Assembly: GCA_013368375.1 (NCBI GenBank)
Contig: JAACJP010000007.1
Span: 248,001-312,000 of the forward strand
DNA length: 64,000 nt
Direction: 5' to 3'
DNA from: Tricholomella constricta
Taxonomy: Eukaryota; Basidiomycota; Agaricomycetes; Agaricales; Lyophyllaceae
Position numbers and translations under genes: made by a program. Positions 52,973 to 64,000 of this stretch are shown here, in pieces. Within the stretch, counting starts at the first letter, position 1. Every line of letters starts with the position of its first letter. The notes beneath the pieces were generated by a model, which was not told the DNA's origin, made no database searches, and worked only from the letters and a program-made list of their open reading frames with translations.

Positions 52973-53705
52973 ATGTCCTCGACGATAGTGGAGCCTAACA
53001 CAACCATCCGCTATCAAAACTTCGAAGGTCCCTCCTTCACTCAAAGGAGACCTTCACCACCACCCTTCGAAACCTCCCCTGCCTCAACAGGACCTCCGAT
53101 GCAAGGGACTTTCGGATCCAACAGGTCCAGGTTGGAACACCAGATCTTCCAACCTGGCCAACATGAGGGGGATTTTTCCTCAGTCAGTCAGGACCCACGA
53201 CGACCCCTACCCCGAACCCCCTCAAACGTATTCAACCCCTCTTACCAACTCGCCACCCCCAACTATCCCCCCTTACCACCATCCGCAACGACCTCCGGAC
53301 CTCCGCTTTCAAGTAACCAGACTCCCGGGTCGTACTACGAAAGGTTGAGGCACCCGGAGATGTTCCAGAGGAGGGATAGGGCTCGAGAGGAGGGACAGGG
53401 ACAGTTCGCTCGTCAACAAAACCCCTTTCTACACGGTTCAGACCACGAAAGGATACTCTACGAACTCCGCATGACGCGAGAAGAGTTTTCACGACAACTC
53501 CTAGTCGAAACCATGGGGATGGATCATCAACCCCGAACACCGGAACAATGGGCCAACCTCGTGTTGTCGACCATGCAACTGCACGAAGCCCATCGATTAC
53601 CCCCACAACTGACGGTTTTGCTACAAATGGGGGGAAACGAAAGAAGGTTACGCGCTCTGGCTGGAGAAATCCAGACGTCCAACGAGGGAAGAAGATTCTC
53701 CGACC
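52973..53705 (+). pseudogene. gag: Truncated gag of element 4'
   Basis: About 244 codons from ATG match the intact Gag at 54094 almost exactly. Visible differences are one residue (ET versus EN near residue 34) and loss of three codons (Ala-His-Glu) after EEFSRQ. Coding continues into the inserted LTR and meets a stop at 53735-53737, so the native product is lost. Confidence 0.88.
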
Positions 53706-54064
53706 TGTCACGACCGTCCCTAATCGACCACCCCTAAACTACCCACCTTCTACGCTTTCCCACGCACGTCCGCGGTACATATATGACACCACTTTCTTCT
53801 TTGACACCTTACCTCGATATTGCTTATTGTTACGACTAGTCTCTGTTCTCGGTTTCTTTTCCACTCTCAATCTATTCTGTTTCTTTCACTCGTATCTCTT
53901 GAGCTTCACACGTTCTCGTAAACGCTCTCGTGAACGCCTTCGTCGACGCTCACGACCTCCGGATATCCTATTCGAAGGCCGTCTTCCTCAACGAACGTCA
54001 GGCCTGTCCGCTTCGGTGGTTCCAGAACACTTCTGTAACCGGCGTGCTACACAGAGTCCTAACA
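53706..54064 (+). repeat. 5' LTR of element 4
   Basis: Starts tgtcacgacc, ends cctaaca (359 bp). TATATG at 53780-53785 lies about 29 nt before TTACCTCGATATT (53809-53821), the inferred RNA 5' end. Confidence 0.92.
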
Positions 54065-54065
54065 T

Positions 54066-54078
54066 AATATCGAGGTAA
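54066..54078 (+). promoter_or_regulatory. Self-priming primer-binding site of element 4
   Basis: AATATCGAGGTAA, 1 nt after the 5' LTR, is the exact reverse complement of TTACCTCGATATT (53809-53821) in the LTR, a 13-bp duplex. This is the Tf1/sushi-type arrangement in which the folded RNA 5' end primes reverse transcription. Confidence 0.85.
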
Positions 54079-54093
54079 TCCCACCCACCGGAC

Positions 54094-57006
54094 ATGTCCT
54101 CGACGATAGTGGAGCCCAACACAACCATCCGCTATCAAAACTTCGAAGGTCCTTCCTTCACTCAAAGGAGACCTTCACCACCACCTTTCGAAAATTCCCC
54201 TGCCTCAACAGGACCTCCGATGCAAGGGACTTTCGGATCCAACAGGTCCAGGTTGGAACACCAGATCTTCCAACCTGGCCAACATGAGGGGGATTTTTCC
54301 TCAGTCAGTCAGGACCCACGACGACCCCTACCCCGAACCCCCTCAAACGTATTCAACCCCTCTTACCAACTCGCCACCCCCAACTATCCCCCCTTACCAC
54401 CATCCGCAACGACCTCCGGACCTCCGCTTTCAAGTAACCAGACTCCCGGATCGTACTACGAAAGGTTGAGGCACCCGGAGATGTTCCAGAGGAGGGATAG
54501 GGCACGAGAGGAGGGACAGGGACAGTTCGCTCGTCAACAAAACCCCTTTCTACACGGTTCAGACCACGAAAGGATACTCTACGAACTCCGCATGACGCGA
54601 GAAGAGTTTTCACGACAAGCGCACGAGCTCCTAGTCGAAACCATGGGGATGGATCATCAACCCCGAACACCGGAACAATGGGCCAACCTCGTGTTGTCGA
54701 CCATGCAACTGCACGAAGCCCATCGATTACCCCCACAACTGACGGTGTTGCTACAAATGGGGGGAAACGAAAGAAGGTTACGCGCTCTGGCTGGAGAAAT
54801 CCAGACGTCCAACGAGGGAAGAAGATTCTCCGACCCCCAAAGCGCGGGACGTTCCTTCCACATGCCAATTCAGGAGCCCGTTCCCTCCAGAATCGAAACT
54901 AGATTCGAAGAACCTCCACGAGCGACAAGCACGGTCAATACGCAGACAGCTTCGGCTCTACTCAGGAGGATGAACCAAGGGAACGCTCCCCCCAGCCAAG
55001 AAGGGTTCGAACCCACCGTCACACCAGGGGCAGACGCTCGAAGAGCTCCGACGTTCGGGTTCTGGGGAGCCCACAACTTACAAAGAATCCCCGAAGAGAA
55101 CCCCCCTGTCGAAGGACCGTTTTCCAGGCCAAATTCGGGTTTTCAGGGCCCACAGGGGACCTTCGCAAACCAAGAAGGAGTACCTCCGAGGGAACCTGAG
55201 AACATTCCCCTACCTCCGTCGGAACGGGGAATCCCAACGCCACTGTCGTACGCCCACAGCTACGAACTACGCGAAGAAAACTCGGAAAGAAGAGAGGGAG
55301 CACCCCCTAGGGCACGAGAAGACTGGCGCCAAACACCACCTCACCTGGCGACTCAGAACAGGAGGTCACCGCAAGGCCCACGTCCCATCTCCCCAAGAGA
55401 ACGACGGGGACTCGGAGCGGACCCCAGCCCCGGTCAAAATGTGAACATCCTCGAAGGAAGGCAAGGGACCCAACAACAGTTCCCCCAGTTCGAACAATAC
55501 AGAACTGACTACAACCGCGGACCAGCCCCACCAATACCCGGCGGACGACCAATCCCTCAGTACAACGGACCACCTCCACAGCCCCAACCACCTCCGGGAT
55601 CTTCGGGACCACCTACCCCGAGAGGATCTCAATGGGGAAACGGTCCCGGAGGACCAGGAGGGGGAGGAGGAGGTTACGGAGGAGGAGGGGGAGGCCCCGG
55701 TGGAGGCGGGGGAGGTCCCGGGGGAACAGGAGGTCCCGGAGGAGGAGGAGGTCACGGAGGATACGGACCACCACAAGGACCAGGAGGCCCTGGAGGCCCC
55801 GGAGGTCCGGGATGGGGAGGAGGAGGCCCAGGATGGGGAGGGGGAGGTCACGGAGGAGGAGGAGGAGGAGGCCCGCCCGGAAACCAAGGGGGAGGCCACT
55901 TCGCAAACCCCCAACGACCCCCACCTCCACCGCAACAATTCTTAGGCCCAAACCAAAACTTGACCCCGGAACAGTATCGGCACCTCCTAAACCTGGAATC
56001 GAAGATCGACATCAGGAAACCGGACCCCTTCACGGGAAAAGAACCGAGGAGATGGAAGACCTTCGTCACGGAATGCCTAGTAACGTTTCAAGCCAAGGCG
56101 ATCACCTACGAACAGGACCACCTGAAGGTGTCATTCGCGAGCTCCTACTTAAAGGACGGAGCTATGGACTACTTTCGACTGCAACTCACGTACAACCCCC
56201 AACACCCAATGTTCACGAATTGGGAAGGATTCGTACACGAACTAGGATCACGCTTCGGAATACCGAACTCGAGAGTGGAAGCCGAGAACAACATTTCGCG
56301 ACTGAAAATGAAGGACTGGGAAAAGTTCACAGCATTCATCGTCAAGTTCGAACAAGAAGCGTACGAAACAGGTTGGAACTGGGTAGCGCTGCAGTTCACA
56401 CTCCGGAAAGCGCTCCCCCCGCGAATCCTCAACGTCCTGGCCATCGCACCAAGCCCCGAAACCTACGAAGGTTACCGAGATCTGGTCACTCAAATCGATC
56501 GGAGGTACTGGGAACATCGCATAGAAAATCCAGAGTCCTACAAACCCCTCTGGGCGAATAACGCGAACACCCCCAACACCTCCGCACGACCTCCGATGGG
56601 ACCTTCGGCCGGACCCGCAAGCCGCACGACGCCGCAAACGGCTCAAGGGAACAGGAACGCACGCTTGAACGCCGAAAGTCATGATCAGGACCCGGACTCA
56701 GGTAGGGAAGGTAAGGCGCAAGACCAGGAAATCGCATGGGACGACGAGGAGGCCCTACAAGCCAACAACTTCGGGTTCAAGAAGTCAACACGCCCCTGGG
56801 TGAAGATCGACGAAGACGTAAAGCAACAACGAATTCGAGACAAGGCCTGCATCCTATGCGGTGACCTGGAACACTGGATGCGCGACTGCCCAACAGCAAA
56901 CGCCATGGGCAGAGCCACCTACCTCATCGGCGACGACATCTTCGAATTCCATCACAAGACAGAAGAGGGAAACGCGGGGGCGATTCAGGACTTGCCCGGG
57001 CTCTGA
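54094..57006 (+). CDS. gag: Gag of element 4, unusually long with a Gly-rich domain
   Basis: The protein is 970 aa; typical chromoviral Gag is 300-500. Residues 1-500 are Pro/Arg-rich and disordered, with one helical patch (SDHERILYELRMTREEFSRQ). A block at about 510-600 is almost pure Gly with Pro, Tyr, His and Trp interruptions, encoded by GGA/GGN repeats. The capsid core follows (about 630-810: KPDPFTGKEPRRWKTFVTEC, then VSFASSYLKDGAMDYFRLQL and SRFGIPNSRVEAENNISRL). A linker and a zinc knuckle CILCGDLEHWMRDC (about 915) precede the end. The slippery site lies 10 codons before the stop. The long disordered and Gly-rich parts could drive condensation of particles, but that is only inference. 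Confidence 0.93.
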   Translation: MSSTIVEPNTTIRYQNFEGPSFTQRRPSPPPFENSPASTGPPMQGTFGSNRSRLEHQIFQPGQHEGDFSSVSQDPRRPLPRTPSNVFNPSYQLATPNYPPLPPSATTSGPPLSSNQTPGSYYERLRHPEMFQRRDRAREEGQGQFARQQNPFLHGSDHERILYELRMTREEFSRQAHELLVETMGMDHQPRTPEQWANLVLSTMQLHEAHRLPPQLTVLLQMGGNERRLRALAGEIQTSNEGRRFSDPQSAGRSFHMPIQEPVPSRIETRFEEPPRATSTVNTQTASALLRRMNQGNAPPSQEGFEPTVTPGADARRAPTFGFWGAHNLQRIPEENPPVEGPFSRPNSGFQGPQGTFANQEGVPPREPENIPLPPSERGIPTPLSYAHSYELREENSERREGAPPRAREDWRQTPPHLATQNRRSPQGPRPISPRERRGLGADPSPGQNVNILEGRQGTQQQFPQFEQYRTDYNRGPAPPIPGGRPIPQYNGPPPQPQPPPGSSGPPTPRGSQWGNGPGGPGGGGGGYGGGGGGPGGGGGGPGGTGGPGGGGGHGGYGPPQGPGGPGGPGGPGWGGGGPGWGGGGHGGGGGGGPPGNQGGGHFANPQRPPPPPQQFLGPNQNLTPEQYRHLLNLESKIDIRKPDPFTGKEPRRWKTFVTECLVTFQAKAITYEQDHLKVSFASSYLKDGAMDYFRLQLTYNPQHPMFTNWEGFVHELGSRFGIPNSRVEAENNISRLKMKDWEKFTAFIVKFEQEAYETGWNWVALQFTLRKALPPRILNVLAIAPSPETYEGYRDLVTQIDRRYWEHRIENPESYKPLWANNANTPNTSARPPMGPSAGPASRTTPQTAQGNRNARLNAESHDQDPDSGREGKAQDQEIAWDDEEALQANNFGFKKSTRPWVKIDEDVKQQRIRDKACILCGDLEHWMRDCPTANAMGRATYLIGDDIFEFHHKTEEGNAGAIQDLPGL

Positions 57007-57011
57007 ATCGC
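56967..57011 (+). promoter_or_regulatory. -1 ribosomal frameshift signal, element 4
   Basis: The heptamer GGGAAAC (56967-56973) is phased G_GGA_AAC in gag. After a 6-nt spacer (56974-56979), GCGATTCAG (56980-56988) pairs perfectly with CTGAATCGC (57003-57011), a 9-bp stem with a 14-nt GC-rich loop; the gag TGA (57004-57006) lies in the 3' arm. Pol is in the -1 frame. Confidence 0.87.
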
Positions 57012-60000
57012 GAAGACCTAAAACCGGACCTTAACACTAAACTACGCGCAACGGCATTATCGACAACGGACACCCGCACAGTAACCCTCTCCTCCCATTC
57101 GTCACTGGCATTTCTAATACACCTCACGCCAAACGGAGGAGGAGAAGACCCCGAAAACACGCTCATCGACAGCGGAGCTACCGACAACTTCATGGACTCC
57201 GTCATGGCGACATCACGTGGGCTCCACCTCGAGGAGCTCAACCCCCAAATAAACCTCTGCCTATTCGACGGAGAACCCTCCGCATCAGGCAAAATCACAC
57301 ACTATACCACCAACGACGTCAAATTCAGTGACGGCACCACTCAGAGGATAAGATTCCTCATAACGAAACTCCACGAGACAGCGACGATAGTACTGGGACT
57401 ATCATGGCTGAAGGAGGTCAACCCCCGCATAAATTGGAAAGACCTCTGCATCACGCTACGACGGGGGTCAAACGGCAAAATCGAAGGATCACTACCGGAC
57501 CTCCGAAGAAAAAAGGAAGTCGCTCCAACAACAACAGGTACAGGAGCTCAACGCTTACCCTCGCGGTCGGCTCGCTCCTTCACGATCGAAGTACAGTTGG
57601 AGGGATCTGCAACGCGTCTACGGGCACTTATTGATAGTGGGGCGGCGGGCAACTTCATAACAAAATCCTCGTGTACGAAGCCGGAACCTCTCGCCAACCC
57701 CATGACCCTACAACTGTTCGACGGAAACCCCAGCGGAGGCGGAGCCATTTCACACCATAGTCCCGAAACGATCAAACTCGAGAACGGACTAGAGTATAAG
57801 GTCGACCTCCTCATAACACAGTTACATCCAGCCACACCAGTAGTGCTTGGATTACCTTGGTTACGGGAAGCAAATCCGGACATCGACTGGCGGGAAATGT
57901 CCATGACCATGGAACAAGGGGCAGGACTAGCCGCGATATCGCTTTCCCAGAAGACGCAATGGGGAACCGTGACCCTTGAGGAGGAGGAAGACGTCGAAGC
58001 TCCGAAACCAGCCAACCCCCTTTCGGAAAAACAACCCCTCCTTAGGGACATCCTGGACAACGATAACGACCAGAACGACACCTCCAACGACATCAAGAAG
58101 GAGGAAGACACCCACCCAAACACCAACGAACCCCAAGAGGAAGTACCAACACCGACAACCGAGTCGCCAGAGGAGGTAACGGGACGGAAACGCACCCGAA
58201 AACCACCCCCACCGAACTACTTCCCTCCAAACGTTCCGAGGTCCAAATTCAAACCTCACCCCAAACGGAAATCCGCAACGTCCCCAACGACAGAAACACA
58301 GGAAGAAGAGGAAACCAACCCGGAAACGGAGGTCGAAGATGAAACCGGAGAGGGAGAAGAGGATGTCGAAACACAAAACATCCGCCTGATCGGAGCGGCG
58401 CCATTCGCGAACCTCATCAGGGACGGAGCCACAGCGTTCCAACTACACATCTCCCCCACCGAAAAGGAAGAACACCTCCATGCCAATAACACCTCCGACG
58501 ACGAACCCAAACAACCAAAGACAGAAAAGGAAATCTTTGAGGAAGTCGTACCTCCGGAGTACAGGGACTTCGAAGACGTATTCTCAGCGGGCGAAGCGAA
58601 AACCATCCCCCCACACCGACCTTACGATCACACAGTGGAACTCGACGAAAACACTACCCCTCCCTTCGGAAAGATATACAACATGTCCGAACTGGAGTTG
58701 AAAGCATTGAAGGATTACATCGACGAGATGCTCGGTAAAGGGTTCATCCGACCTTCGAGTTCATCAGCGGGAGCTCCGGTACTGTTCGCAAAGAAGAAGG
58801 ACGGATCACTCCGGTTATGCGTGGACTATAGAGGATTAAATCGGATCACCAAGAAGAACCGTTACCCTCTACCTCTGATCGGAGACCTCATAGACCGACT
58901 TCAAAAAGCAAAAGTATACTCGAAGATCGACCTCCGAGTGGGCTACAACAACGTCCGCATAGCTCCGGGACACGAATGGAAGACAGCCTTCCGCACTCGT
59001 TATGGACTTTTCGAATACCTGGTAATGCCCTTCGGCATGACAAACTCACCCGCGACGTTCCAACACTTCATGAACGACATCTTCCACGACATGAACGACG
59101 TGTTCGTAGTGATCTATCTCGACGACATTCTGGTTTTCTCGGAGACCTTAGAGGAACATCACGGACATGTTCGGAAGGTCCTCGAGAGGCTCCGGAAACA
59201 CAACCTTCATGCGAAACCGGAGAAATGCACGTTTCACACTACGGAGATCGAGTATCTAGGCGTCATTGTATCCCCTAGCGGAGTAAAGATGGATCCAGGA
59301 AAAGTCGACGCGATCCGGAAGTGGCCTAGACCGACGAAGGTCAAAGAACTCCAATCCTTCCTAGGCTTTGCAAACTTCTATCGGCGGTTTATCGACAATT
59401 ACTCGGGCATAACGAAGAGACTAAACAAACTCACGCAAAAGGACACAATCTGGAAATGGGATTCCGAATGCGAAGGAGTTTTCGAGCTATTGAAGAAAGC
59501 ATTCTCCTCCGCACCCATCCTACGACACTTCGATCCTCAACTACCGGTGATACTAGAGTGCGATGCTTCCGACTTTGCCATAGCAGGAATCATCTCCCAA
59601 TTCGACGAGACATCGCAAGACCTACGTCCCGTCGCCTTCTATGCGAGAACCATGATAGACGCGGAGCTCAACTATGACATCTACGATAAGGAGCTCCTAG
59701 CGATCGTTGAAGCGTTTAAACAATGGAGAGCCTACCTCGAGGGATCCCCCCACCGCATTCAAGTGTACTCCGACCACAACAACCTACAGTACTTCTCCAC
59801 GACCAAGCAACTCAGTCGCAGACAAGCACGATGGTCGGAATGCCTGGCGAACTTCGACTTCCAAATAAACTACAGACCGGGAAGACTAGGAGCGAAGCCA
59901 GATGCCCTCACACGACGAGCGGACGTATATCCTAAGAAGGGTTTCGAACAGGATCATAATTCGTTCAATAACCGCATCATCATACCCCCCGAACGGTTGA

Positions 60001-61472
60001 ACGCATCCCTAATTCTAAACGAACAACTCCTGTTGAACAACGTTCGTAATGCACCCCGAGATGACTTCTTCGAGAAATACGCACCCAAACCTGGAGACGA
60101 GTCCTCCGCGTTCTCACTATCCGACGACCACAAACTACTCCTTCGCGACGGAAGAATCTACGTACCGAACCATTCCAGGTTACGCCTCGACATCCTGCAG
60201 CAACATCACGATCACAAACTACGTGGACATCCAGGAATCAGAAAGACCACACAACTCATCATGAGGACTTATTTCTGGCCCGGATTACGGAAGGAGGTCA
60301 CCCGATACATCCGAAGTTGCCACACTTGCAAAAGAGCGAAGGTCCCGCGCCACAGCCCATATGGATTGCTGAAACCGCTTCAGATCGGACGACGGGCGTG
60401 GGCCTCCATATCTATGGACCACATCGTGGAATTACCGGAATCGGATGGGTACGACGCCATCTTGGTCGTAGTATGCCGCCTCACAAAACAAGGCATCTTC
60501 ATACCCTGTCACACAACGGACACAGCGAAGGAGCTCGCACAACTGTTCCTAGAACACGTCTTCTCCAAGCACGGATTACCCGATGACATCATCTCCGACA
60601 GAGGCACTCTCTTCGTCTCCCGTTTTTGGAGCTCGCTGTGCAAAGCCCTGGACATCAAATCGAACCTTTCGACCGCGTATCACCCGGAGACCGACGGCCA
60701 GACGGAACGAGTAAATCAGACACTGGAACAGTACCTCCGGATGTACGTGAACTACCTCCAGACCAACTGGCGAACACAGCTCCCGCTGGCGGAATTCACG
60801 TATAACAATACGACCCATTCAACCACGGGAGTCTCTCCTTTCTTTGCGAACAAAGGCTATCACCCCCGCCTGACAATCTCTATAAAAGACATACCGGCAA
60901 GGGAAGCCCAGGAGGTAGCCGTCGACCTCCGGACCCTCCAGGACTACCTCCGCCAAGAGATAGAGATCGCAAACGAAGCCTACAAACGATTCGCGGACAA
61001 GAAACGGGACCCTACACCAGACTGGGCCGTAGGAACGGAGGTATGGCTTGACTGCCGGAATATCAAAACGAAACGCCCCTCCAAAAAGCTGGACCACCTG
61101 AGACTGGGCCCCTTCAAAATCCTACAGAAGATCTCCAGCCACGCGTACCGTCTGGAACTACCTCCGGCATTGAAGGGAATTCACAATGTTTTCCACGTCA
61201 AATTACTCGAAGAACACAAACACGAGAACTTCCCAGGAAGGTCAAAGCCACCTCCGCAGACGATCGAAGTCGAGGGCGAAGAGCACTATGAAGTAGGACA
61301 AATCCTAGACTCCAGGACACGAGGGAGGCGCGTCTTTTACTTGGTACGATGGGAAGGGTACGGCCCCGAAGACGACACATGGGAACCAGCAGAGAATATA
61401 GAAGGAGCAAAAGACATGGCCCTCGAGTTCCACCGACTTTTCCCAAGAAAGCCACGGGACCCCACGATTTAA
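56973..61472 (+). CDS. pol: Pol of element 4 with two tandem protease domains, made by -1 frameshift
   Basis: 1500 codons including the stop follow the shift. First retropepsin: TLIDSGATDNF, DSG at 57168-57176, then VLGLSWLKEVNPRINW. Second retropepsin: ALIDSGAAGNF, DSG at 57633-57641, then VLGLPWLREANPDIDW. A 200-residue acidic, Pro-rich linker leads to RT: LRLCVDYRGLNRITKKNRYP, KIDLRVGYNNVRI, YLDD at 59115-59126. RNase H: LECDASDFAIAG and YDIYDKELLAIVEAF. Integrase: zinc region ending CHTCKRAK, then SMDHIVELP, ISDRGTLF and QTERVNQTLE. Chromodomain at about 61275-61440 (GQILDSRTRGRRVFYLVRWE, then YGPEDDTWEPAENI). No stop or frameshift is seen. Confidence 0.95.
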   Translation, partial: RGGDSGLARALNREDLKPDLNTKLRATALSTTDTRTVTLSSHSSLAFLIHLTPNGGGEDPENTLIDSGATDNFMDSVMATSRGLHLEELNPQINLCLFDGEPSASGKITHYTTNDVKFSDGTTQRIRFLITKLHETATIVLGLSWLKEVNPRINWKDLCITLRRGSNGKIEGSLPDLRRKKEVAPTTTGTGAQRLPSRSARSFTIEVQLEGSATRLRALIDSGAAGNFITKSSCTKPEPLANPMTLQLFDGNPSGGGAISHHSPETIKLENGLEYKVDLLITQLHPATPVVLGLPWLREANPDIDWREMSMTMEQGAGLAAISLSQKTQWGTVTLEEEEDVEAPKPANPLSEKQPLLRDILDNDNDQNDTSNDIKKEEDTHPNTNEPQEEVPTPTTESPEEVTGRKRTRKPPPPNYFPPNVPRSKFKPHPKRKSATSPTTETQEEEETNPETEVEDETGEGEEDVETQNIRLIGAAPFANLIRDGATAFQLHISPTEKEEHLHANNTSDDEPKQPKTEKEIFEEVVPPEYRDFEDVFSAGEAKTIPPHRPYDHTVELDENTTPPFGKIYNMSELELKALKDYIDEMLGKGFIRPSSSSAGAPVLFAKKKDGSLRLCVDYRGLNRITKKNRYPLPLIGDLIDRLQKAKVYSKIDLRVGYNNVRIAPGHEWKTAFRTRYGLFEYLVMPFGMTNSPATFQHFMNDIFHDMNDVFVVIYLDDILVFSETLEEHHGHVRKVLERLRKHNLHAKPEKCTFHTTEIEYLGVIVSPSGVKMDPGKVDAIRKWPRPTKVKELQSFLGFANFYRRFIDNYSGITKRLNKLTQKDTIWKWDSECEGVFELLKKAFSSAPILRHFDPQLPVILECDASDFAIAGIISQFDETSQDLRPVAFYARTMIDAELNYDIYDKELLAIVEAFKQWRAYLEGSPHRIQVYSDHNNLQYFSTTKQLSRRQARWSECLANFDFQINYRPGRLGAKPDALTRRADVYPKKGFEQDHNSFNNRIIIPPERLNASLILNEQLLLNNVRNAPRDDFFEKYAPKPGDESSAFSLSDDHKLLLRDGRIYVPNHSRLRLDILQQHHDHKLRGHPGIRKTTQLIMRTYFWPGLRKEVTRYIRSCHTCKRAKVPRHSPYGLLKPLQIGRRAWASISMDHIVELPESDGYDAILVVVCRLTKQGIFIPCHTTDTAKELAQLFLEHVFSKHGLPDDIISDRGTLFVSRFWSSLCKALDIKSNLSTAYHPETDGQTERVNQTLEQYLRMYVNYLQTNWRTQLPLAEFTYNNTTHSTTGVSPFFANKGYHPRLTISIKDIPAREAQEVAVDLRTLQDYLRQEIEIANEAYKRFADKKRDPTPDWAVGTEVWLDCRNIKTKRPSKKLDHLRLGPFKILQKISSHAYRLELPPALKGIHNVFHVKLLEEHKHENFPGRSKPPPQTIEVEGEEHYEVGQILDSRTRGRRVFYLVRWEGYGPEDDTWEPAENIEGAKDMALEFHRLFPRKPRDPTI

Positions 61473-61672: not shown

Positions 61673-63707
61673 CTACTCAATGCGCCGACGCTTAGAGGGA
61701 CCTGCACTAGCAGAAGAACCCTCCCCGCCCACAACCCCCACCTCCCCAATCAACCCTACCTCCAGAGGACGCATCGATGCGATATCCCGCTCGTCATCGG
61801 CAATCAACTGCGACCGGGATACGAACTCGGCGAGAGCGTCTTCACGAGTGAGTGAGGCGCGGTGAAGAGCAAGGAGGTGCTCAAACGCAGGGAAAGGAAC
61901 CTCGGGATCGACAGGAGGACGGAAAAGCTCAAGGAGCGAGTGCCGCTCCAGAATCTTGTGGGCGCCATCGATGATACTTCGAACTGGCGACACATCCAGC
62001 TCGACGAGGGCGCGACGCAGAGCACCATCCGCGATGAACATGTCGGACGCGAAGGCGGTATGCGTGAGGTCAAGGGCTAGGACAGTTTTCAGAAAGAGGG
62101 AAAGAGAAAACAAAGGGAATGGAAGAGAACTCACCATCGACGCGAAGGCGAAGGTCCAAAGCATGACCACGCCAAAAGTCCCGGACCTCCTGCAAATGGA
62201 CAACGTGCCCCTGTAAACCAGCGACCTCATCCTCAAAACCCGCAACCTGCATCCGCAGATCCTCGACCTCAATGTCACGATCGACATCGACGACCTCCAC
62301 GGCACGCGATGTCTGCGCCTGCAGATGAAGAAGACGTTCACGCTCGTCGGCGAGTTGGGATAGGACTCCGTGAAAACGACCTTTGTGGCGTTCACCCTCG
62401 GCCTCGAGACGCTCGACCTGGGATGAAAGGGCCTGAGCACGCGCGACCTCCTGGTCGTAGAGACGCTGGAGACGGAGGAACGCCTCCGGTGAAGGAACAG
62501 AAGGAGCAGGGGTAGCGAGGGGGGACGACAACAACATGGAGGGAGGGCAAGACTGTAGAGCTGGAAGAGCTGGCGTTGGAGAATTCGAAACAGACGAGCC
62601 CTTTAAAAAGAGAGGCTCGACAGGGGGAGTATCGGGGGACACCGCGCGCGTAGCGCCCGACAAAGGAGGGGCCAAAAGAGGAGAAGTCGGCGCCGCGGGA
62701 GAAAGGGAAGGGGAACGAGACACGGACGAAGGCCGCCTCCCCAGCCCCTGCAGACCAGATCGCCCACCCCCACGACTAACAGACACTAATTTTCGACCCT
62801 GCCCTCGGGTACCTCGAAAAATGGCGCGTGGAGGCGAAACACGGCTAACGCTCATGGCGGCCTCATCACCAGAAGACGAAGTCAGGGAAAGGACCTCCGC
62901 AGAGGGCACGGAGACAAGGGAGTTTCGAAAAGAAGGCGGCGCCACACGCAAGACGCGACGGATGGCGTCGAAGGACATCGCGACACCAGTACGAGAAAAA
63001 GTGAACCCTTCGACACGGGATTGAAGCCACGCCAAGGGGATGCCCAACTGCCTAGCCGCCACTTCTAGGCCATGATCGAGCGAAAGCGAGCACAAGGAGT
63101 GCGCCGCACGACAATCAACACAAGGCAGGGTCCCGCGAAGACGGACCTCCTGAAATTGACAAGGCTGCTGACGCCCCCGACAACGATCGCACTAACGAAG
63201 AACCCAAAACGGAATCAGCTAAAGCGATCGACTCGATCACAGAAGGAGGGCGACACTTACCGGCGCATGCGCCTCACACCATGCCAAGGAGGGAGGAACC
63301 CGCACAGCGGTACGCAACACCTCCGCCAAAATCGCATCCGTCAACAACGACCCCCAGGATAAGGAGGTGGCCGCCGGACGCGATACAGGATCACTAGCCA
63401 GTTCAAACTCGGCCTCAGGAGTGACGGAACGAGGACGCCGGATTTGTCGAGATCGGTTAGGAAGACGGATGGTGAGACGAGGGACGGGGGGCGTAGAGGG
63501 AGCAGGGGAAGAGTCAGGGATCGTCGAAACGCCCCCATCGATAAGAGTGACGATCTCAGGCAGAGAGGAGGTGGGAGAAGCAGGTTGGGGCACGCCCAAG
63601 AACGCGACGCGCGCTCGATCTTCAGCGGACAAGCGCGCCAATTCCTCATCGTGTAAAATTCGGGCAGCGGAGGCAGAGGACGCGGAATCTTGGTGGGACC
63701 TCGACAT
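61673..63707 (-). CDS. Spliced antisense gene inside element 4: coiled-coil protein of unknown function
   Basis: Three exons on the strand opposite gag-pol, 63707-63261, 63149-62135 and 62076-61673, join in frame to 621 aa. Introns are GTAAGT...TTTCAG (111 nt) and GTGAGT...CCTAG (58 nt). The start ATG precedes SRSHQDSASSASAARILHDE. Residues about 158-170 hold a Cys motif (PCVDCRAAHSLC). The middle is Ser/Pro-rich. A heptad-like coiled coil follows (LRLQRLYDQEVARAQALSSQ, then VERLEAEGERHKGRFHGVL). After the second intron comes a helical domain (ALRRALVELDVSPVRSIIDG) and a basic KRRRIE end that could be a nuclear signal. It is not an env, capsid or polymerase protein that I recognise. Being antisense, its introns would survive retrotransposition through the genomic RNA. 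Confidence 0.82.
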
Positions 63708-63811
63708 GAAGAGAAGTGAGGATTGGAAGAGGAAAAAACAACTGGAATTTTCTCTATTCGGTCTCCGAGATCCTCAAAACACCCACAAGGACCCACAAAC
63801 AATCTAGACCG

Positions 63812-63828
63812 CACGTGCCCCTCACGTG
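63812..63828. promoter_or_regulatory. Paired CACGTG E-boxes upstream of the antisense gene
   Basis: CACGTG at 63812-63817 and again at 63823-63828 are 11 bp apart, one helical turn, and lie 105-121 bp upstream of the antisense ATG (63707), between it and the 3' LTR. CACGTG is the classic bHLH binding site, so these are candidate promoter elements for the antisense gene. Binding is inferred. Confidence 0.5.
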
Positions 63829-63928
63829 ACCACGCACACGCGAGAACAAAAACACAAAAAACTTTACTCTCCTTGCATTCGAAAAGCTGCCCCGCGTCTC
63901 AGTGGCTCGACGCTTGAAGAGGGGGTAA

Positions 63929-64000
63929 TGTCACGACCGTCCCTAATCGACCACCCCTAAACTACCCACCTTCTACGCTTTCCCACGCACGTCCGCGGTA
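63929..64000 (+). repeat. Start of the 3' LTR of element 4 (cut by the window end)
   Basis: The 72 visible bases are identical to the start of the 5' LTR. It is preceded by the polypurine tract gaagagggggtaa (63916-63928). Confidence 0.93.

Follow-up and report, generated by a model that had tools for sequence, protein, structure and literature searches.

The 3′ end of a Ty3/Gypsy retrotransposon in the agaric Tricholomella constricta (Lyophyllaceae) raises the question of how a gene with introns, read from the strand opposite to gag and pol, came to be carried by such an element, and what it does there. The window analysed here is the whole stretch of 64,000 nucleotides, positions 248001-312000 of contig C7, taken from an assembly of 44.1 Mb in 118 contigs. 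A first-pass annotation of this DNA had proposed three roles for the product of the gene, namely that it regulates the element, counters host silencing or represents captured host sequence.

The Carrier Element

The gene is carried by a Ty3/Gypsy chromovirus, in which pol contains reverse transcriptase (RT), RNase H, integrase and chromodomain regions and the whole is flanked by LTRs (Table 1). Pfam matches above cut-off were obtained in pol for RVT_1, RT_RNaseH, Integrase_H2C2 and Chromo, and the rve match reached 27.9 bits, below its cut-off of 32.6; in gag, the capsid and CCHC matches were both under the Pfam cut-offs. Since both 359-bp LTRs are identical, this copy is young. By analogy with self-primed elements, the LTR stretch that is complementary to the putative primer site is a possible RNA start and self-primer. 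The left flank of the element (53498-53705) equals 54628-54835, which suggests an insertion into the gag of a second copy of the same family. A further family RT was found at C7:316200, and a further antisense gene at C7:319541.

Two other traits of the coding frames were recorded. A glycine-rich repeat tract occupies 55642-55889 in gag, and tandem protease-like stretches occur in pol at 57100-57950, corresponding to gag-asp_proteas (residues 98-183) and RVP_2 (residues 252-351) in the 1535-aa frame.

Table 1. Positions in the window of the element's parts and of the antisense gene with its upstream block.
Feature	Positions	Strand	Details
5′ LTR	53706..54064	+	359 bp, TG...CA; 3′ LTR identical
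LTR stretch able to pair with primer site	53809..53821	+	13-nt complement
Putative self-primer binding site	54066..54078	+	13-nt complementarity to LTR
gag frame	54079..57006	+	975 aa, stop to stop
pol frame	56865..61472	+	protease-like stretches, RT, RNase H, integrase parts, chromodomain; stop at 61472
Exon 3	61673..62076	-	stop codon 61675-61673
C-terminal basic KRRR	61682..61693	-	in 5/5 subfamily representatives
Intron 2	62077..62134	-	58 nt, GTGAGT...CCTAG, phase 1
Exon 2	62135..63191	-	
Proline-free stretch, probable coiled coil	62135..62486	-	residues 385 to 502, on to 531 in exon 3
Zn2Cys6-like cluster codons	63090..63191	-	residues 150-183
Intron 1	63192..63260	-	69 nt, GTAAGT...GTTAG, phase 0
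Exon 1	63261..63707	-	149 codons, ATG 63707-63705
Conserved block upstream of antisense ATG	63756..63835	-	72% of columns invariant, six subfamilies; probable promoter
Conserved stretch ending in polypurine tract	63895..63928	+	34 bp, before 3′ LTR
3′ LTR, first 72 bp	63929..64000	+	extends past window to window-equivalent 64287 (read in L001)

The Antisense Gene and Its Product

Between pol (stop at 61472) and the 3′ LTR (starting at 63929), the minus strand holds a three-exon gene spanning 61673-63707, and this locus is almost certainly a real gene. The first-pass annotation had claimed a gene of this kind, with canonical intron donors, in this place of a Gypsy element; the predicted gene structure, with its GT..AG introns, bears it out, the place agrees, the element being a chromodomain one, and so does the junction of exons 2 and 3 (62135/62076). 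What had to be replaced was the acceptor of intron 1, which had been set so as to give an intron of 111 nt (63260-63150), in place of the 69 nt (63260-63192) adopted here. The cysteine cluster begins in the 42 nt thereby assigned to the intron, 14 codons whose CDRC......C makes up its first half. The acceptor at 63150 was rejected because these 42 nt are in frame and open, with the cysteines kept, in all seven copies displayed, and because the matching residues are contained in the annotated gene models P0001-P0004, which are predictions and in which the residues flanking intron 1 are joined. The AG of the acceptor at 63150 was likewise found in 7/7 copies displayed, its use also leaves the frame open, and it may be used occasionally. 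With intron 1 ending at 63192, the product therefore has 635 residues, in place of the 621 first claimed, and a complete C-x2-C-x6-C-x12-C-x2-C-x6-C. Thus, a Cys motif had been rightly noticed, but the earlier acceptor halves it and the full six-cysteine cluster needs the corrected intron; a long coiled coil and a basic tail, which had also been claimed, correspond to a long proline-free region predicted to be helical and to the terminal KRRR.

The six cysteines, with the spacing 2-6-12-2-6, are invariant in P0001-P0004. The Zn2Cys6 consensus is C-x2-C-x6-C-x5to12-C-x2-C-x6to8-C, and the cysteine spacing of the product agrees with it. The Zn_clus profile was matched by eight of nine domain sequences, with a best E-value of 0.0046 that falls short of the Pfam curated cut-off: P0001 scored 15.5 bits and P0003 16.6 against a cut-off of 21, P0002 scored 11.2 and the domain piece of the window copy 10.6, and in the Pfam search neither P0004 nor the entire exon 2 of the window was matched by Zn_clus. 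Because of these scores under the cut-off, the product is called Zn2Cys6-like, not a member of the family. Moreover, a profile search of the PDB (E <= 10) returned two LEU3 zinc clusters alone (E 0.23 and 1.3), in whose alignments all six cysteines are aligned, and the UniRef name of P0001, P0003 and P0004 is 'Zn(2)-C6 fungal-type domain'.

The AF2 models were weak, with a mean pLDDT of 50.8 for the whole of P0001 and 60.4 for the domain. In P0001, residues 121-230 form a block with pLDDT 59-88, in which short helices start within both C-x2-C pairs, and outside this block values near 70-79 were reached for the helix 372-432 alone. In structure searches with the weak full model, the helical region prevailed and the matches were unrelated helical ones; the lack of a zinc-cluster match among them carries no weight. 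Judged by its sequence, the proline-free helix region is probably a coiled coil. All five subfamily representatives have the terminal KRRR, but at least one other copy (L027) carries a changed version. The product shows no 19-residue stretch of strong hydrophobicity, the highest mean hydropathy being 1.14, where the usual threshold for a membrane span is about 1.6; the gene is antisense, and has neither the sense orientation nor the transmembrane segment of the envelope-like aORFs. Protein database searches, one of which scored 7988 candidates sharing most words, gave matches in T. constricta alone; a narrow distribution cannot be claimed from this, because repeat masking before annotation may hide relatives. 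An IMG/VR scan for relatives gave 29 pattern stretches, none of them confirmed. The public gene model of P0002 (D9615_009035) seems to be a fusion of a Ty1/copia RT piece with an antisense gene of the family.

Copies in the Genome and Their Pairing with RT

Exon 2 gave at least 121 matches in the T. constricta genome, merged into at least 105 loci, and these counts are lower bounds because 115 of 171 candidates were scored. When the loci were set against the best 150 of 773 candidates of the RT search, an opposite-strand family RT was found within 9 kb at 86 of the 105, at 2.1-6.0 kb, with most distances close to 2.87 kb; none of the 105 had a same-strand family RT within 6 kb, and 19 were unpaired, some of them at contig ends. 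Among the same best 150, the gene was present at 85 of the 100 RT matches of at least 78% identity and at none of the 50 listed matches of 63-64% identity, which belong to a sister family. In the single sister-family element read, the pol frame enters a G-rich, polypurine-like tract at a putative LTR boundary, no zinc-cluster gene was found behind this tract, and a minus-strand frame of another retroelement comes next. The gene thus lies between pol and the 3′ LTR, on the opposite strand and in most copies, which is the arrangement termed aORF-3R; the position of the LTR relative to the gene was read in six copies.

Full-length matches to exon 2 were stop-free in 72 of 76 cases, and 11 full-length copies were 99-100% identical. 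The gap between exons 1 and 2 measured 58-83 nt in all 73 pairs measured, a part of the matches, so that no intron-less copy was seen; this fits the earlier suggestion that antisense orientation lets the introns persist.

Selection on the Protein and Probable Recombination in pol

Fully intact genes with GT..AG introns were found in 28 of the 36 gene-bearing copies fetched, the window copy included; the gene is broken or cut in L005, L022, L024, L025, L026, L031 and L036, and L030 has lost the acceptor of intron 2. The frame, the intron positions and their phases are kept across five divergent subfamilies, and the exon lengths of intact subfamily copies differ by multiples of three only, while intron lengths vary (58-83 nt for intron 1 and 52-60 nt for intron 2). 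Among intact representatives of the five subfamilies, dN/dS was 0.19-0.30 in 10/10 pairs, no bootstrap upper limit exceeding 0.37, and it fell to 0.09-0.16 in the region with the cysteine cluster and to 0.11-0.16 in exon 3. Since dS between subfamilies is 0.43-0.87, this conservation is not mere recency. In a six-frame control, the gene frame alone was stop-free, again in 10/10 pairs; four other frames gave dN/dS of 0.94-2.54, and the frame that shares third positions gave 0.29-0.43 with 16-22 stop-containing codon pairs. Each pair differs by 167-268 changes at third positions versus 52-130 at first or second positions. Neutral decay is excluded because the frame and introns are kept, dN/dS is 0.19-0.30 and a single frame is stop-free, and a selected, intron-bearing antisense gene is strongly supported. 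The comparison of family copies had been proposed as a check in the first-pass annotation, with stops and frameshifts at the neutral rate as the outcome that would speak against the gene; no such decay was observed. Inside subfamilies, pN/pS was higher (0.41-0.80), which fits selection on the active lineage with slow decay after insertion.

The pol of the window copy was compared with that of one copy each of subfamilies B, C, D and E. It is under stronger constraint than the antisense gene, dN being at most about 0.05, and it is a mosaic, in which dS ranges over 0.03-0.76: values of 0.03-0.07 occur in many stretches for C and D, and within 60200-60600 every one of the four copies reaches 0.58-0.76. 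On this pattern, the subfamilies have probably recombined. With its dS of 0.43-0.87, the antisense gene has roughly the age of the most ancient parts of pol. The notion that it is an exchangeable cassette with a faster rate of evolution than the whole of pol was also considered, and was dropped because the oldest parts of pol match the dS of the gene. The exon 2 protein is about 69-87% identical to that of the window copy across subfamilies, and RT is mostly 98-100% identical. LTR type and gene type do not go hand in hand, the LTRs of B and D, for instance, being 92% alike and their exon-2 parts 67-87%. Within 59400-60600, pol dS relative to the window copy jumps to 0.6-0.76 and then drops, a sign of recombination among copies.

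The Conserved Block Upstream of the Antisense Gene

The ATG of the antisense gene is separated from the 3′ LTR by 221 bp, and the conserved block listed in Table 1 stands out within this spacer, since the invariant columns beside it amount to 21% and 29%. The corresponding values across the six subfamilies are 36% for the start of exon 1 and 49-56% for LTR parts. The block contains CACGTG...CACGTG, a pair that five of the six subfamilies keep intact, ACCCACAAGGACC, also in 5/6 subfamilies, and the near-palindrome GATCTCCGAGATC, which is exact in 5/6 and has one mismatch in the window copy. It is the probable promoter of the antisense gene, judging from its conservation and place. Near the distant genes described below (L037-L039), neither the GATCTCCGAGATC palindrome (at most one mismatch) nor the CACGTG pair (at most three mismatches) gave a match. 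A CCGCGG in the LTR, upstream of a TATA-like box, was considered as a target and set aside, as it is not conserved in other subfamilies.

Distant Relatives and the Origin of the Gene

A search with exon 1 revealed distant relatives at 34-37% identity, and a matching cluster exon was found at nine distant loci in the T. constricta genome, among them L037, L038, L039, C71 and C82. In four sequences (two in L037, one each in L038 and L039), L038 repeating a gene of L037, splice signals fall, as in the antisense gene, at the codon boundary that precedes the first cysteine, and the gene models of P0003 (D9615_010630) and P0004 (D9615_010489) join at this intron 1 boundary. These two proteins are 27-28% identical to P0001; they share with the antisense gene the six cysteines, the exon 1 motif, the position of intron 1 and the long helical region, and they differ from it by a long acidic stretch. 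No RT frame was noticed around the distant genes when frame lists covering 3-10 kb were inspected by eye.

In C15 and in C82, two of the nine distant genes lie about 5.3 kb apart, and some of the nine are near contig ends. A JmjC-like neighbour of these genes was dropped, as it had no Pfam support on the three pieces searched.

With the cluster present in nine distant genes, and the intron at a matching position in those examined, the gene may plausibly have been captured from the host. The simplest account of these likenesses is that the ancestor of the family captured such a host gene in antisense; the reverse direction, from element to host, may have been taken instead.

Comparison with Known Antisense Genes

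The first-pass annotation knew of no spliced antisense gene of this kind in a fungal chromovirus. As to antisense genes in fungal Gypsy elements, this novelty does not hold: brtn, located between pol and the 3′ LTR of Boty, has been published, according to the passages of PMC7264820 and PMC8365987 that cite Zhao et al. 2011. Boty-like elements, as far as they are described in PMC4227169, have a CHROMO domain in gag-pol, so that the brtn of Botrytis cinerea and Sclerotinia agrees with the T. constricta gene in place, orientation and chromodomain gag-pol, although the host of Boty is an ascomycete and T. constricta a mushroom. This comparison is one of descriptions, not of sequences, and the passages on brtn in the citing papers make no statement on introns or on a zinc cluster. 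As to the spliced, zinc-cluster type, no spliced antisense gene in a fungal Gypsy is described in the literature searched, outside which most subscription papers lie, Zhao et al. 2011 included, and the word 'antisense' is absent from the main texts of PMC3411680 and PMC2864245. What is new is the conserved introns, the zinc-cluster-like product and the evidence of selection in a mushroom chromovirus.

Among plant Gypsy elements, Grande (gene23), RIRE2 and Retand (TRP28) carry antisense ORFs that are kept in most copies, with an own upstream promoter and a nuclear product in Grande and probable DNA binding in Retand, according to the sections of PMC7264820 and PMC11963269 devoted to them. They share place and orientation with the T. 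constricta gene, but encode a different protein family (TRP28 in Retand), and the word 'intron' is absent from the main text of both papers. The HBZ/APH genes of HTLV, as outlined in part of PMC3185765, are spliced antisense genes at the 3′ LTR, and the bZIP product of HBZ regulates its own LTR. HBZ resembles the predicted T. constricta gene in being spliced, antisense and near the 3′ LTR, an analogy of working for which no homology is claimed; in contrast, its transcription starts in the 3′ LTR and its protein is bZIP, not zinc-cluster-like.

A Probable Regulator Carried by the Element and Its Alternatives

Among the three roles first proposed, host capture and regulation fit best, and counter-silencing is neither supported nor excluded. 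Selection has preserved an antisense gene in copy after copy, which suggests that the element maintains a regulator of its own, and the product of this accessory gene probably, if far from certainly, acts in the nucleus, binding DNA and regulating transcription of the element. Its most likely ancestor would be a host gene whose product had a zinc cluster and a coiled coil. After capture in antisense, the introns would go unrecognized during synthesis and reverse transcription of the genomic (sense) RNA, so that every new copy would carry the whole gene. A promoter in the 221 bp between ATG and 3′ LTR would drive an antisense mRNA, spliced from three exons, and the 635-residue product would enter the nucleus by its KRRR tail, dimerize by the coiled coil and bind DNA by the Zn2Cys6-like cluster. 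By binding targets such as the conserved promoter block or the LTR of the element itself, it would set the level of the element's transcription, upwards or downwards. The idea of a tight pairing of LTR and protein is weakened by the mismatch between LTR types and gene types. More tentatively, the whole may be put together as a captured intron-bearing host zinc-cluster gene that could serve as a trans-acting regulator, made possible only by the antisense shielding of its introns, with HBZ as a counterpart reached independently and with the subfamilies as sub-lineages that recombined in pol.

Accessory proteins of plant transposons include an anti-silencing type, exemplified by VANC of VANDAL elements. 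A nuclear DNA-binding protein whose target is the heterochromatin or methylation of the host at copies of the family would have the same architecture of DNA-binding type and the same basic tail, and would suit a multicopy family with recent insertions (identical LTRs; 11 exon-2 copies at 99-100%) in which the gene is kept at 85 of 100 close RT matches among the best 150 of 773; the sequence, however, is without any pointer to chromatin enzymes, and we regard this role as unlikely. It is more doubtful still that the minus-strand transcript itself controls gag-pol via double-stranded RNA, the frame being secondary. Such a transcript would overlap the genomic RNA, and retroelement antisense transcripts can act so, as noted in a passage of PMC7264820, but selection here is on codons, as the excess of third-position changes (167-268 vs 52-130) indicates, and the introns drift in length. 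We give an equally small chance to a post-entry or integration factor, which would travel with the pre-integration complex and steer or aid integration alongside the chromodomain; a nuclear-type tail and the self-insertion into a family copy would accord with it, but pol already has a chromodomain, and the sister family (63-64% RT identity) manages without the gene (0/50 listed, one copy read). Least probable of all is a useless passenger, conserved through recent spread or repeated recapture: despite the nine genes of related architecture in the genome, of which those checked share the position of intron 1, a dS of 0.43-0.87 with dN/dS of 0.19-0.30 between subfamilies requires long selection, position and strand are fixed, and the outside genes, at 27-28% identity, are too distant for recapture.

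Significance

According to PMC7264820, no function has yet been settled for the antisense genes of LTR elements. The T. constricta case combines codon-level selection, the architecture of a regulator, a conserved upstream block and at least 72 stop-free full-length exon-2 copies, and with distant homologues outside the element in the same genome, capture and regulation are therefore directly testable. It also suggests a simple rule, according to which host genes with introns can be maintained in retroelements provided that they are carried in antisense.
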